The position numbers and the translations under genes are program-made. A stretch of DNA of 64,000 nucleotides, from positions 1,302,001-1,366,000 of the forward strand of contig NZ_CP157000.1 in assembly GCF_039905635.1 (NCBI RefSeq), in the 5' to 3' direction. This document shows positions 37,010 to 63,593 of this stretch, piece after piece. Below the pieces are notes generated by a model. It did not search any database. It worked only from the letters and a program-made list of their open reading frames with translations, and was not told the DNA's origin. This stretch comes from Microbacterium sp. ProA8. Lineage in GTDB: Bacteria > Actinomycetota > Actinomycetes > Actinomycetales > Microbacteriaceae. How positions within the stretch are numbered: position 1 is the stretch's first letter; each line of letters begins with the position of its first letter.

Positions 37010-37882
37010 ATGCGCGGCATCATCCTCGCCGGTGGCACCGGCTCCAGGCTTCACCCGATCACACGGGGCATCTCGAAGCAGCTGGTTCCGGTCTATGACA
37101 AGCCGATGATCTATTACCCGCTCTCTACCCTGATCCTCGCGGGTATCCGAGACATCCTGGTCATCACGACCCCTCAAGATGCCGAGCAGTTCCGTCGTCT
37201 TCTCGGCGACGGCACGGTATTCGGCGTGTCGATCACGTACAAGACCCAGCCGTCACCCGATGGCCTTGCGCAGGCGTTCATCCTCGGCGAGGAGCACATC
37301 GGATCCGAACCCGTGGCTCTCGTGCTCGGCGACAACATCTTCTACGGACAGGGAATGGGCACCCGGCTGCGCCAGTATGCCGATCTCCAGGGTGGTGTGG
37401 TCTTCGGATACTGGGTGGATGACCCCAGTGCGTACGGCGTCGTGGAGTTCGACGCCGACGGCCGCGTCGTGTCCCTCGCGGAGAAGCCGGCGTCGCCGAA
37501 GAGCAACTACGCGGTTCCGGGTCTGTATTTCTATGACAACGACGTCATCGAGATCGCAAAGGGACTTTCGCCGTCTCCGCGCGGTGAGCTCGAGATCACC
37601 GACGTGAATCTCGCGTACCTCCATCGTGGCGACCTGAAGGTGGAGCTGCTGCCCCGGGGTACCGCATGGCTCGACACGGGAACGTTCGACTCGCTGAGCG
37701 AGGCGACCGACTTCATCCGCACCGTCGAGAAGCGGCAGGGGCTCTCGATCGGCTGCCCTGAGGAGGTCGCGTGGCGAATGGGATTCCTCACCGACGACGA
37801 GCTTCGTGAACGGGCCGAGCCTCTCGTCAAGAGCGGTTACGGCGCGTACCTGCTGAAGGCTCTCGAGCAAGGTCGCGCGTGA
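37010..37882 (+). CDS. rmlA: Glucose-1-phosphate thymidylyltransferase
   Basis: A 290-residue RmlA that makes dTDP-glucose from glucose-1-phosphate and dTTP, the first step to dTDP-L-rhamnose. It starts [20 protein letters not shown] with the nucleotide loop, then [30 protein letters not shown] and [20 protein letters not shown]. The ATG at 37010 starts the homology; an upstream in-frame start adds unrelated residues. It is followed closely by two RgpF genes. rmlB and the rmlC-rmlD fusion lie 10 kb to the right. Confidence 0.95.
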
Positions 37883-37898
37883 ACGTCGGAGTCTCCTG

Positions 37899-39818
37899 AT
37901 GCCCGCTACGGGCAGCGGGCCGCTCGTCGACGACGTCCATACGGGCCTGCGCAGGCTGATCGTCTACGTCATCTGGGACCGACGCGGTGACGTCGAGGAC
38001 TATGTCGCCCATGCACTGGGAGGTCTCCGGGAGCACGCCGCTCACATCATGGTGGTCGTGAACGGTGCCCTGACAGACGCGGGGCGCGCCACGCTCGAGC
38101 CTCTGGCAGACGAGATCCTCGTTCGCGAGAATCGCGGGTTCGATATCTGGGGCCATAAGCACGCCCTCGACCATCTCGGACCCCGCATCGAAGAGTTCGA
38201 TGAGCTGATCCTGACCAACGACACGTGGTTCGGGCCTGTCCGCCCCTATGGTCCGGTCTTCACGCGGATGGATGCGAGTCCCGTCGACTTCTGGGGCATG
38301 ACGGATCACGCGCGAGAGGAGCCGAACCCGTTCACCGGCGAGGGTGTCCTCTTCTATCACCTGCAGTCGTTCTGGATCGCGGTCAGGCGCAGGATGTTCA
38401 TGTCCGCGCAGTGGGGTGCCTATTGGCAGCGACTGCCGGAGATGCCGGGCTACTTCGATGCCGTTCTGCGGCATGAGGCGATCTTCACCGAGCACTTCGC
38501 GAACGCGGGCTTCCGCCATGACGTCGCGTTCCCCTCGGCCGAGTATCCGACGGATCATCCGGCGCTCTTCAACCCCGACCTTCTGCTCCGTGATGGATGC
38601 CCACTGCTCAAGCGCCGGCCGTTCTTCCACTACCCCCCGTTCCTCGATCGCCACGCGGTGATCGGCCGAGAGCTGCTCGGCGAGGTGGAAGGCTATGGAT
38701 ACCCGACCGGGGTGATCTGGCAGGATGTCGCGCGCAACGTGGCTCCGAGAGTCGCGAACACGAATGCCGGAGCCCTCGAGGTCCTGTGGGATCGAGCCCT
38801 GCCGGACGAGACGGTCAGCGCCGTTCCACGGCTCGCCGTGATCGTCCACGTCGTCGACGAACAGGCGCTGGACGACATCGGTGCCCATGTCCGGAATCTC
38901 CCGGCATCGAGCGATCTGATCGTCACGGCTCCGCCGCACATCGATTCGGCGCGTATCCGCGAGCGGCTCGGGCGCGATGGCGCCCCGCGGTTCGCGCGCA
39001 TCGACGTACGCACGCTACCCCGTCCGGAAGTGAACCATATGAGCGCGTTGCTCATCGGATGTCGCGACGTGCTGCTCGATGGAAGCTACGACATCGTGGT
39101 CAAGCTCATCGCGGCCAGTCCTCGTCGCAGATCGTTCAACGCGGACCGCTATCTCGCTCGGCATCAGTTCGACAATCTGCTGAACTCGCCTGGCTACGTG
39201 GCCAATCTCATGGCTCTGTTCCGGCGCGAGCCGGGGCTTGGCGCGGTCTTTCCGCCGACGGTGTTGCTCGGAAGCTCACACTTGGGCGCCGGATGGGGGC
39301 GTCTTCGGCCACGCGCAGAGTCGCTCGCGAAGAAACTGCGGATCAGCGTGCCGTTCGACGACGTATCGCCGCTTGCTCCCTTCGGCGGGATGATGGTGTT
39401 CCGACCGGAGGCCCTCCGGCTTCTCACGGAGCATGCCTGGCAGTACTCCGACTACGCGCCCGCCTCCCCGTTCCCGGACGCACCGCTCGCCGACACGCAG
39501 GAGCTCCTCATCGCCTACGCCATGGGTGAGCGGGGATTCCACTGCCGGACCGTCCTCGCGAGGGAGTATGCCGACATCAGCCATACCGCGCTGGAGTTCA
39601 CGCTCGACCAGCTGTCCTCGACCACACCGGGATACCCCGTCGAGCAGATCCAGTATCTCCACCGCGCGGGACGGGTGGGTCGCGGGAGTGCGCTGGATCT
39701 CGCGCGCATGTATCTTCGCCTGAACCACCCGCAGGCTACCGCTGCGGTCGCCTCGGCGGCCCGCAGCGCTGTCCATCGGCTGACATCGCTCGGGCGACGC
39801 AGAGGAGATGTCCGATGA
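37899..39818 (+). CDS. Rhamnan synthesis F (RgpF)-family protein, copy 1
   Basis: A 639-residue protein of the RgpF family. The N-terminal half carries LIVYVIWDRRGDVEDYV, VVVNGALTDAGRATLEPLAD, ILVRENRGFDIWGHKHALD and LTNDTWFGPV, then FWGMTDHAREEPNPFTGEG and YHLQSFWIAVRR, standard for this family. RgpF was described in streptococcal rhamnose-glucan synthesis and is thought to transfer or extend rhamnose. The start is ATG 37899 with a GGAG ribosome site 7 bases before it. It overlaps copy 2 by 4 bases. Confidence 0.85.
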   Translation: MPATGSGPLVDDVHTGLRRLIVYVIWDRRGDVEDYVAHALGGLREHAAHIMVVVNGALTDAGRATLEPLADEILVRENRGFDIWGHKHALDHLGPRIEEFDELILTNDTWFGPVRPYGPVFTRMDASPVDFWGMTDHAREEPNPFTGEGVLFYHLQSFWIAVRRRMFMSAQWGAYWQRLPEMPGYFDAVLRHEAIFTEHFANAGFRHDVAFPSAEYPTDHPALFNPDLLLRDGCPLLKRRPFFHYPPFLDRHAVIGRELLGEVEGYGYPTGVIWQDVARNVAPRVANTNAGALEVLWDRALPDETVSAVPRLAVIVHVVDEQALDDIGAHVRNLPASSDLIVTAPPHIDSARIRERLGRDGAPRFARIDVRTLPRPEVNHMSALLIGCRDVLLDGSYDIVVKLIAASPRRRSFNADRYLARHQFDNLLNSPGYVANLMALFRREPGLGAVFPPTVLLGSSHLGAGWGRLRPRAESLAKKLRISVPFDDVSPLAPFGGMMVFRPEALRLLTEHAWQYSDYAPASPFPDAPLADTQELLIAYAMGERGFHCRTVLAREYADISHTALEFTLDQLSSTTPGYPVEQIQYLHRAGRVGRGSALDLARMYLRLNHPQATAAVASAARSAVHRLTSLGRRRGDVR

Positions 39819-62402: not shown

Positions 62403-62408
62403 TACAAT
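62403..62408 (+). promoter_or_regulatory. -10 box TACAAT of glf
   Basis: TACAAT, 48 bases before ATG 62457, leaving a leader of about 42 bases. Confidence 0.45.
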
Positions 62409-62456
62409 TGCCAGGCAACCGTTGGTCACCCCCCCAATCCCAGATCGGTCAGAGCC

Positions 62457-63593
62457 ATGGATCTCCTCATCGTCGGCTCCGGCTTCTTCGGTCTCACGAT
62501 CGCCGAGCGGGCAGCGGCATCCGGTCGGAAAGTGACCGTCATCGATCGTCGGAACCACATCGGCGGGAATGCGTACAGCGAGAAGGAGCCCGAGACGGGC
62601 ATCGAGGTGCACCGTTACGGAGCACACCTGTTCCACACGTCGAATCCCTCCGTGTGGGAGTACGTCAACCGCTTCACCGCCTTCACGAGCTACGTCCATC
62701 GCGTCTACACGACGCACAAGGGCGTCGTCTATCCCTTGCCGATCAATCTCGGCACGATCAACCAGTTCTTCCAGGCCGCCTACTCACCCTCGGAGGCCCG
62801 CGCTCTCGTGCACGAACAGGCGGGCGAGTACGACGCGCAGCATGCCGCGAACCTCGAGGAGAAAGGCATCGCGCTGATCGGGCGGCCGCTGTACCAGGCG
62901 TTCATCCGCGACTACACCGCGAAGCAGTGGCAGACCGAGCCGACGGAGCTCCCGGCGGAAGTCATCAGCAGGCTGCCCGTGCGTTACACGTACGACAACC
63001 GGTACTTCAACGACACGTGGGAAGGGCTCCCCGTCGACGGTTACACGGCGTGGCTCGAGCGGATGGCCGATCACCCGAACATCGACGTGAAGCTCTCGAC
63101 GGACTTCTTCGACGACGCGCAACCGCTCAACAAGCAGGCGACCGTCGGGCAGGTCCCCGTGGTCTACACGGGTCCCGTGGACCGGTACTTCGACTACGCC
63201 GAGGGCGCGCTGTCGTGGCGGACCCTCGACTTCGAGCAGGAGGTCCTGCAGGTCGGCGACTTCCAGGGGACGTCGGTGATGAACTACGCGGATGCCGACA
63301 CGCCCTTCACCCGCATCCACGAGTTCAAGCATTTCCACCCCGAGCGCGCCGACCGATACCCCACGGACAAGACGGTCATCGTCCGCGAATACTCGCGCTT
63401 CGCCGGGACGGGCGACGAACCGTACTACCCCGTCAACACGCCGGCAGATCGCAACGGTCTGCTCGCGTATCGGGAGCTTGCGAAGAGCGAGCAGGGCGTC
63501 CTGTTCGGCGGCCGACTCGGCACGTATCAGTATCTCGACATGCACATGGCCATCGGCTCCGCGCTCTCGATGTGGAACAACCAGCTCAGCTGA
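62457..63593 (+). CDS. glf: UDP-galactopyranose mutase
   Basis: A 378-residue flavoenzyme that turns UDP-galactopyranose into UDP-galactofuranose. [20 protein letters not shown] is the FAD site, then [60 protein letters not shown] and [20 protein letters not shown]. All active-site segments are present. Galactofuranose is a likely component or linker of the wall glycan; a dedicated galactofuranosyltransferase is not recognised in the window. ATG at 62457 begins the homology. Confidence 0.96.

Follow-up and report, generated by a model that had tools for sequence, protein, structure and literature searches.

What would a cell make with one locus that supplies three kinds of activated sugar and two polysaccharide exporters? 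The question is raised by a 64,000-nucleotide stretch of the genome of Microbacterium sp. ProA8 (contig NZ_CP157000.1, positions 1,302,001 to 1,366,000; G000:C1:1302001-1366000 in our numbering), here called the window, from a host genome of 4.37 Mb in one contig. Profile searches place rmlA, rmlB, an rmlC-rmlD fusion, gmd, the gene of an Rmd-like reductase, glf and two Wzm/Wzt pairs between 36938 and 63593, in the lower-GC part of the window (GC ~0.71 at 1-30000, ~0.65 at 30000-64000); at the thresholds used, rmlCD, Rmd, Wzm1, Wzm2, glf and Wzt_C each have a single match in the host genome. We read this region as a wall-glycan cluster composed of three modules, one for a rhamnan, one for a galactofuranan and an accessory gmd-rmd module, a reading that we consider reasonably probable and in which we infer the product of each module from linkage. 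The genes on which the argument depends are the following.

36938..37882, + strand: rmlA, glucose-1-phosphate thymidylyltransferase (TIGR01207, 469 bits, cut-off 361)
37899..39818, + strand: RgpF-type rhamnan synthesis protein 1 (PF05045, 4.6e-98; 330 bits, cut-off 25)
39815..41704, + strand: RgpF-type rhamnan synthesis protein 2, 4 bases shared with the preceding gene (PF05045, 2.8e-132; 442 bits, cut-off 25)
41743..44052, + strand: 769-amino-acid protein with a C-terminal GT4 domain and no family assigned to its N-terminal half (PF13692, 3.7e-11 at 552-667)
44157..45617, - strand: GT4a, candidate for use of a GDP-sugar donor (PF00534, 2.9e-25)
45614..47116, - strand: GT4b (PF00534, 2.7e-23)
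47113..48219, - strand: FkbM-type methyltransferase, candidate chain-end modifier (PF05050, 2.8e-23)
48261..49262, + strand: rmlB, dTDP-glucose 4,6-dehydratase (TIGR01181, 461 bits, cut-off 365)
49208..50671, + strand: rmlC-rmlD fusion, epimerase plus reductase, completing dTDP-L-rhamnose (PF00908 and PF04321; coordinates of the longest frame, a later true start being possible)
50768..51772, + strand: gmd, GDP-mannose 4,6-dehydratase (PF16363, 386 bits; structure 1rpn)
51769..52689, + strand: Rmd-like GDP-4-keto-6-deoxy-D-mannose reductase (structures 2pk3 and 6x3b)
52747..53619, + strand: GT2a (PF00535)
53741..54655, + strand: Wzm1, permease of a putative rhamnan-type exporter (PF01061, 2.3e-14)
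54658..55881, + strand: Wzt1, ATPase with a C-terminal end-binding domain (PF00005 and PF14524; ATG at 54658, two bases past the Wzm1 stop, sequence analysed from 54652)
55955..56764, + strand: Wzm2, permease of a putative galactofuranan-type exporter (PF01061, 6.9e-16; glf on the same contig in 116 of 116 genomes)
56764..57507, + strand: Wzt2, ATPase without an end-binding domain (PF00005, 2e-19; ATG at 56764, sequence analysed from 56743)
62349..63593, + strand: glf, UDP-galactopyranose mutase (TIGR00031, 339 bits, cut-off 304)

At the level of families, the donor pathways named in the preliminary description of this DNA hold up: the rml genes for dTDP-L-rhamnose lie where it had placed them or close by, and glf, its source of UDP-galactofuranose, scores above the cut-off of its model. 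The fusion matches PF00908 with 133 bits at residues 31-196 and PF04321 with 249 bits at residues 206-486; it exceeds the cut-off of the rmlD model (TIGR01214, 226.5 bits against 224) and falls under that of the rmlC model (TIGR01221, 84 bits against 156). The best solved structure for its RmlC half is a dTDP-4-dehydrorhamnose 3,5-epimerase (1nxm, 7e-55), and the fusion also matches 1vl0 (1e-41). The gmd product scores under the cut-off of TIGR01472 (364 bits against 415), and its best solved structure is a GDP-mannose 4,6-dehydratase (1rpn, 1.5e-100). A supply of GDP-mannose is to be expected, since a ManC-like GDP-mannose pyrophosphorylase is encoded at C1:1279847-1280935, 21 kb upstream of the window (TIGR01479, 263 bits, cut-off 373). 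The two Wzm/Wzt pairs, said to differ in an end-binding domain, do so: Wzt1 carries the Wzt_C domain (PF14524, 61.6 bits, cut-off 30.4) and in Wzt2 nothing matched PF14524 up to E 5. Finally, gmd, rmd, GT2a, wzm1, wzt1, wzm2 and wzt2 run in one direction over 50768-57507 with intergenic gaps of at most ~120 bases and, given this arrangement, could form a single operon.

Which polymer each exporter serves can be approached through its company in other genomes. Seven queries against 149 genomes of the genus, the host's own included, matched Rmd in 18 (at E of 1e-40 or lower, weaker matches being left out), RmlC-RmlD in 126, Wzm1 in 141, Wzm2 in 116, glf in 133, Wzt_C in 50 and RgpF in 45. The 141 genomes with Wzm1 fall into a class of 48 with identity of at least 53% and another of 94 with 33-45%, a single genome belonging to both, and the line between the classes was drawn after the gap in identity had been seen; six secondary matches with 27-31% identity (G010, G017, G045, G064, G093, G137) fall outside both classes. 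The 45 RgpF genomes consist of 39 with strong and 6 with weak matches (78-102 bits).

Wzm2 is never found without glf. In all 116 genomes the two share a contig, with match starts within 3 kb of each other in 74 and within 10 kb in 110, and glf occurs without Wzm2 in 17 genomes; it is this constant company that makes Wzm2/Wzt2 best read as a putative galactofuranan exporter. The 48-genome Wzm1 class accompanies every strong RgpF (39 of 39 genomes, on the same contig and within 15.5 kb, 35 of them within 10 kb), which points to a rhamnan-type exporter, and the 6 weak-RgpF genomes lack this class. Furthermore, wherever RgpF and an rml match share a contig (35 of 35 cases), they lie within 10 kb of each other, and rml lies within 10 kb of the 48-genome class in 40 of 44 such cases. 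Wzt_C was found within 2.5 kb of the Wzm1 gene in 47 of these 48 genomes and adjoins none of the 94-genome class; one further Wzt_C match, in G011, adjoins neither. The idea in the preliminary description of two wall polymers, one of them recognised at its end, thus stands in part: linkage across the genus separates a rhamnan-type from a galactofuranan module, but the possession of two exporters is ordinary (114 of 149 genomes have Wzm2 together with a Wzm1-like permease of either class), and D- and L-rhamnose are not divided between them.

The gmd-rmd pair is a patchy accessory third cassette that appears to have been repeatedly re-sited. It occurs in 18 of the 149 genomes, and gmd adjoins rmd at all 19 loci, the window included; rmd is present in 12 of the 48 Wzm1-class genomes and in 9 of the 39 with strong RgpF (absent from 30). 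In 7 of the 18 (G000, G011, G047, G078, G110, G129, G136) it is no more than 30 kb from rml, Wzm1, Wzm2 or glf, and five of the 149 genomes (G000, G047, G110, G129, G136) unite it with rml, RgpF, Wzm1, Wzm2 and glf in one cluster, within ~31 kb. In G129, gmd-rmd stands directly upstream of wzm1-wzt1 and co-directional with it, like the window except for GT2a. PS02068, a Microbacteriaceae bacterium, repeats the gene order of the window between the end of the second RgpF gene and glf at 52-95% identity, with no Wzm2/Wzt2 at the equivalent place and a Wzm2 ortholog (73%) on another contig. The Rmd proteins of the window, PS02068 and G047 group together in a tree (99/97); a single clade of all eight wall-locus Rmds, PS02068 included, was rejected (log-likelihood (lnL) difference 103, approximately unbiased p-value (p-AU) 1e-8). 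An earlier Rmd tree with outgroups left many forks open, with long branches meeting, and we therefore claim no order of events.

GT4 genes recur in the neighbourhood of gmd-rmd. A GT4 family, F9, occurs near gmd-rmd at five of eight wall-type loci (G011, G047, G078, G110, G136). Eight loci combine gmd-rmd with families F3 and F4 (G010, G023, G035, G052, G053, G058, G069 and the second copy in G092), four of these with a Wzz-type family, and are probably exopolysaccharide clusters for D-rhamnose, separate from the wall locus. Among the F3/F4-type loci, neighbour families were scanned in one, the second copy in G092 (a genome with two gmd-rmd pairs): F4, F3 and F10 are GT4 families, F16 is Wzz-plus-ATPase, F15 is DUF4012 and F26 is an acyltransferase.

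Several observations weigh against the three-module reading. Since the genomes are related by descent, the co-occurrence counts express association and are not independent trials, and Fisher values computed from them carry no weight in the argument. Wzt_C adjoins three of the left-out permeases with 27-31% identity to Wzm1 (G017, G064, G137). On the galactan ATPase model NF050108, the two Wzt proteins score alike (163 and 156 of 400 bits); with its 156 bits against a cut-off of 400, Wzt2 is not filed in that family, and Wzm2/Wzt2 probably works like a galactan exporter yet falls outside it. At least 12 of the 48 Wzm1-class genomes give no full match to the RmlC-RmlD fusion: 11 match the RmlC half only and G052 nothing. 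In these 11, for which ~20 kb each was read, rmlB and RmlC are there with no match to the RmlD half (rmlA was seen in 9; the stretches from G089 and G114 end inside rmlB), and 8 carry a strong RgpF. Neither RgpF nor the Wzm1 class is thus strictly tied to L-rhamnose, and the 48-genome class is best called a putative deoxyhexose-chain exporter, with L-rhamnan as the window's version. As for the cassette, rmd sits on the same contig as the wall genes and more than 250 kb from them in 6 of 18 genomes (G010, G035, G053, G058, G069, G092), and in 5 (G009, G023, G024, G052, G081) on a contig without rml, Wzm1, Wzm2 or glf, so that its distance there is undecided; in G009, one contig opens directly with gmd and a second runs out close to the end of rmlC-rmlD, which makes the window's gene order possible there. 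GT2a belongs to the gmd-rmd string, but its 53% orthologs adjoin RgpF in G028 and G067, which lack rmd, and it was rejected as a D-rhamnosyltransferase by association. Lastly, the C-terminal domain of Wzt1 is 39% identical to the window's in G129 and G136, with rmd near, and 41-43% in G028 and G067, without rmd; its divergence does not track the presence of rmd, so the idea that it reads D-rhamnose is unsupported, and the end that this domain recognises is unlikely to be that sugar. In favour of the reading, Wzt1 keeps, against ten relatives, 67-96% identity in the ATPase domain and 22-72% in the C-terminal domain, a pattern to be expected if chain ends vary, which suggests strain-specific chain-end recognition.

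The relatives with the RmlC half only deserve a remark of their own. RmlC is unfused in all 11, and 6 (G112, G130, G133, G018, G114, G135) carry an extra gene 24-30% like rmlB, which directly adjoins RmlC in G112, G130 and G133. These genomes may make a different dTDP-6-deoxysugar, possibly 6-deoxy-L-talose; alternatively, another enzyme may reduce the intermediate.

What the accessory cassette would contribute depends on the enzyme encoded at 51769, whose gene overlaps gmd by 4 bases (ATGA). Among the 104 PDB sequences that its product matched, the top solved structures are a GDP-6-deoxy-D-lyxo-4-hexulose reductase (2pk3, 2e-35) and a GDP-6-deoxy-D-mannose reductase (6x3b, 1e-34), followed in third place by a putative epimerase (4lw8, 9e-25). 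The protein has the FNHIGP segment of 2pk3 and 6x3b, and Y-x3-K and Ser, the residues expected in this reductase family, are also there. By homology, then, the window encodes both the GDP-mannose 4,6-dehydratase and the RMD-type 4-reductase of the GDP-D-rhamnose pathway, and the product of gmd-rmd is presumably GDP-D-rhamnose, an assignment already made in the preliminary description and favoured by the nearest structures of both enzymes (1rpn, 2pk3, 6x3b). Of 20 Rmd proteins compared, 16 have FNHIGP, and it is absent from those of G009, G024, G092 (first copy) and G010; consequently, Rmd proteins need not all have one activity. It would be possible, if unlikely, for the window's enzyme to make GDP-6-deoxytalose or another GDP-deoxyhexose, in which case there would be no D-rhamnose and the remaining model would be unchanged. 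The family name is ambiguous, as an rmd of Pseudomonas syringae is annotated as a GDP-6-deoxy-D-talose 4-dehydrogenase (PMC12608077, in extract), and wall sugars of Microbacterium are reported to include 6-deoxytalose and fucose (PMC11319209, in extract). Against 6-deoxytalose stand the names of the two best structures, from a comparison that included no characterised talose-forming sequence. Against another GDP-deoxyhexose, the NCBIfam GDP-L-fucose synthase model NF047922 is not among the 18 families that match the 51769 product at E 0.001, in a search that covered the window protein only.

Besides the genes that it listed, the preliminary description had left out several others: the two RgpF genes, the FkbM methyltransferase, the two GT4 enzymes and the 769-amino-acid protein with a GT4 domain, all given above, and a GT2-DUF2304-membrane-protein unit, a DUF2142 protein and an LCP protein, given here with other features of the window.

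27568..29037, + strand: LytR-CpsA-Psr (LCP) family protein, candidate glycopolymer-peptidoglycan ligase (PF03816, 82.7 bits, cut-off 24.6)
34501..35025, + strand: GtrA-like small membrane protein (PF04138, 3.2e-18)
57541..59130, - strand: DUF2142 protein, a membrane protein according to Pfam (PF09913, 157 bits)
59097..59852, + strand: GT2b, opening the GT2-DUF2304-membrane-protein unit (PF00535, 7.8e-23)
59849..60244, + strand: DUF2304 protein, start inferred (PF10066, 81 bits)
60120..61472, + strand: 450-amino-acid protein 3' of DUF2304, kept beside it in relatives (no Pfam family at E 0.001)
61481..62380, - strand: GT2c, divergent from glf (PF00535, 6.1e-19)

With these genes the three modules can be joined in a proposed mechanism. 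RmlA, RmlB and RmlC-RmlD would make dTDP-L-rhamnose, and the two RgpF proteins and neighbouring transferases would assemble from it, in the cytoplasm, a lipid-carried L-rhamnose chain, to be exported by Wzm1/Wzt1 once the C-terminal domain of Wzt1 has sensed its finished end. Glf would supply UDP-galactofuranose for polymerisation by GT2-type enzymes, and Wzm2/Wzt2 would export the galactofuranan without end recognition, like mycobacterial galactan. The cassette would convert GDP-mannose to GDP-D-rhamnose, and GT4a, GT4b and possibly the 769-amino-acid protein would probably add D-rhamnose, on the cytoplasmic side, to the chain exported by Wzm1/Wzt1. The FkbM methyltransferase is a candidate end-tagger, and the nearby LCP protein could attach the polymers to peptidoglycan. 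We infer the acceptor of D-rhamnose and the end tag from gene content: among the loci read, orthologs of FkbM, GT4a, GT4b and the 769-amino-acid protein occur in the window and PS02068 only, with short GT4-domain matches elsewhere, and this restriction makes FkbM a candidate tagger and the GT4 enzymes candidate users of GDP-D-rhamnose. FkbM gave no tblastn match in ten other loci (also at E 1e-3) nor in the eleven RmlC-only loci. GT4a has weak PDB matches to GT4 enzymes, the GDP-mannose-using PimA among them; for the 769-amino-acid protein, AlphaFold2 on two sequences gave a mean pLDDT of 37, too low for a structure search.

Where D-rhamnose would be attached is less certain. The cytoplasm is where GDP sugars are consumed, and in the window and in G129 wzm1-wzt1 follows on from gmd-rmd; for both reasons we favour the chain exported by Wzm1, at a confidence that is about evenly balanced, the alternatives being an external branch or a chain exported elsewhere. 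A more specific version, which we advance tentatively, is that a single Wzm1/Wzt1 chain would contain both rhamnose enantiomers, an L-rhamnan made with RgpF and D-rhamnose added by GT4 enzymes, the movable cassette being placed independently in different strains and altering their surface.

The unit of GT2b, the DUF2304 protein and the membrane protein (59097-61472), which is kept whole or in part at many loci with or without rmd, is possibly a lipid-linked sugar decoration system. Were it to attach D-rhamnose outside the membrane as a side branch, which we think improbable, one would understand why gmd-rmd adjoins the GT2b-DUF2304 unit or DUF2142 in G047, G110 and G136, and side-chain modules do occur in rgp loci (PMC9746298, in extract); GT2b and DUF2304 are, however, also found at loci without rmd nearby (G028, G067, G035, G101), where they would serve another sugar. 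Somewhat less probable still is one composite chain, for instance a galactofuranan linked to the rhamnan, whose two halves the exporters would deliver. In its favour, of the 34 genomes with rml, RgpF, Wzm1, Wzm2 and glf, 29 hold the five inside 50 kb, and a link between the rhamnan and the pellicle of lactococci has been described (PMC10821137, in extract), but the modules are separable, Wzm2 being missing from 10 of the 48 Wzm1-class genomes and the Wzm1 class from 78 of the 116 Wzm2 genomes. Least probable is that the exporters serve an L- and a D-rhamnose polymer respectively, the end-binding exporter taking one and galactofuranose being a decoration: both donor sets and both exporters are there, with gmd-rmd and the exporters on one strand over 50768-57507, but Wzm2 is tied to glf (116 of 116) and rmd is absent from 101 of 116 Wzm2 genomes and from 36 of 48 Wzm1-class genomes.

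The reading of a rhamnan, a galactofuranan and an accessory gmd-rmd module finds partial parallels in known systems. Streptococcal rhamnan loci combine RgpF with a two-part ATP-binding cassette (ABC) exporter and have backbone and side-chain parts, RgpE being thought to cap the chain; they share with the window RgpF, dTDP-L-rhamnose genes, the two-part exporter, a conserved backbone beside a variable decoration module, and DUF2142 (PMC9746298, in extract). Indeed, the window has the marks of an Rgp-type locus: a member of the RgpF family, dTDP-L-rhamnose genes in the locus and an ABC exporter linked to RgpF (39 of 39). It differs in being actinobacterial and in having two RgpF proteins, a second exporter tied to glf, and gmd-rmd. 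Mycobacterial galactan is exported by Wzm-Wzt (PMC10951656, in extract), and the window resembles that system in its Wzm-Wzt pair, its glf as source of UDP-galactofuranose and the linked ATPase without an end-binding domain, although that ATPase scores far under the cut-off of the galactan ATPase model. Wzt1 aligns with the solved carbohydrate-binding Wzm-Wzt exporter 8dku/7k2t, which we take to be from Aquifex, at 2e-67 (residues 45-369), an alignment that spans the ATPase domain and the greater part of the C-terminal domain; FkbM is only a candidate for modifying the chain end. D-rhamnose-containing wall polymers have been reported in Rathayibacter. Among the papers listed in literature searches, shown in part, none describes such polymers by title or opening of the abstract, and two papers that were checked employ D-rhamnose only in a growth test. 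As in the Pseudomonas common polysaccharide antigen and P. syringae loci, gmd-rmd, glycosyltransferases and an ABC exporter stand in one locus. The D- and L-rhamnose genes of the P. syringae O-antigen locus alternate, two strains being reported with both sugars (PMC12608077, in extract); there the two sets are mostly alternatives, whereas in the window both stand side by side, with glf, in the wall locus of a Gram-positive organism. In the same source, the sensitivity of P. syringae to tailocins is reported to be associated with whether its O-antigen contains D- or L-rhamnose. Every component is known, and what appears new is the actinobacterial wall locus with three donors and two exporters and its modular reading from 149 genomes; no account of this locus turned up in the literature searched by title and abstract listings, which is not proof of absence.

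The comparison across the genus yields testable assignments, namely an exporter for each polymer and a division of core from strain-specific genes. Moreover, an optional D-rhamnose cassette in a conserved background of L-rhamnan and galactofuranan would allow the effect of one enantiomer to be separated by way of two overlapping genes.

Upstream of rmlA, two long frames with good codon bias, 32023-33882 (619 amino acids) and 35051-36901 (616 amino acids), gave no Pfam match up to E 5 except one at E 3.5. A 662-amino-acid DUF4214 protein is encoded at 30008-31996, and its relatives recur at the wall locus in many genomes (65-70% in G028, G047 and G101).

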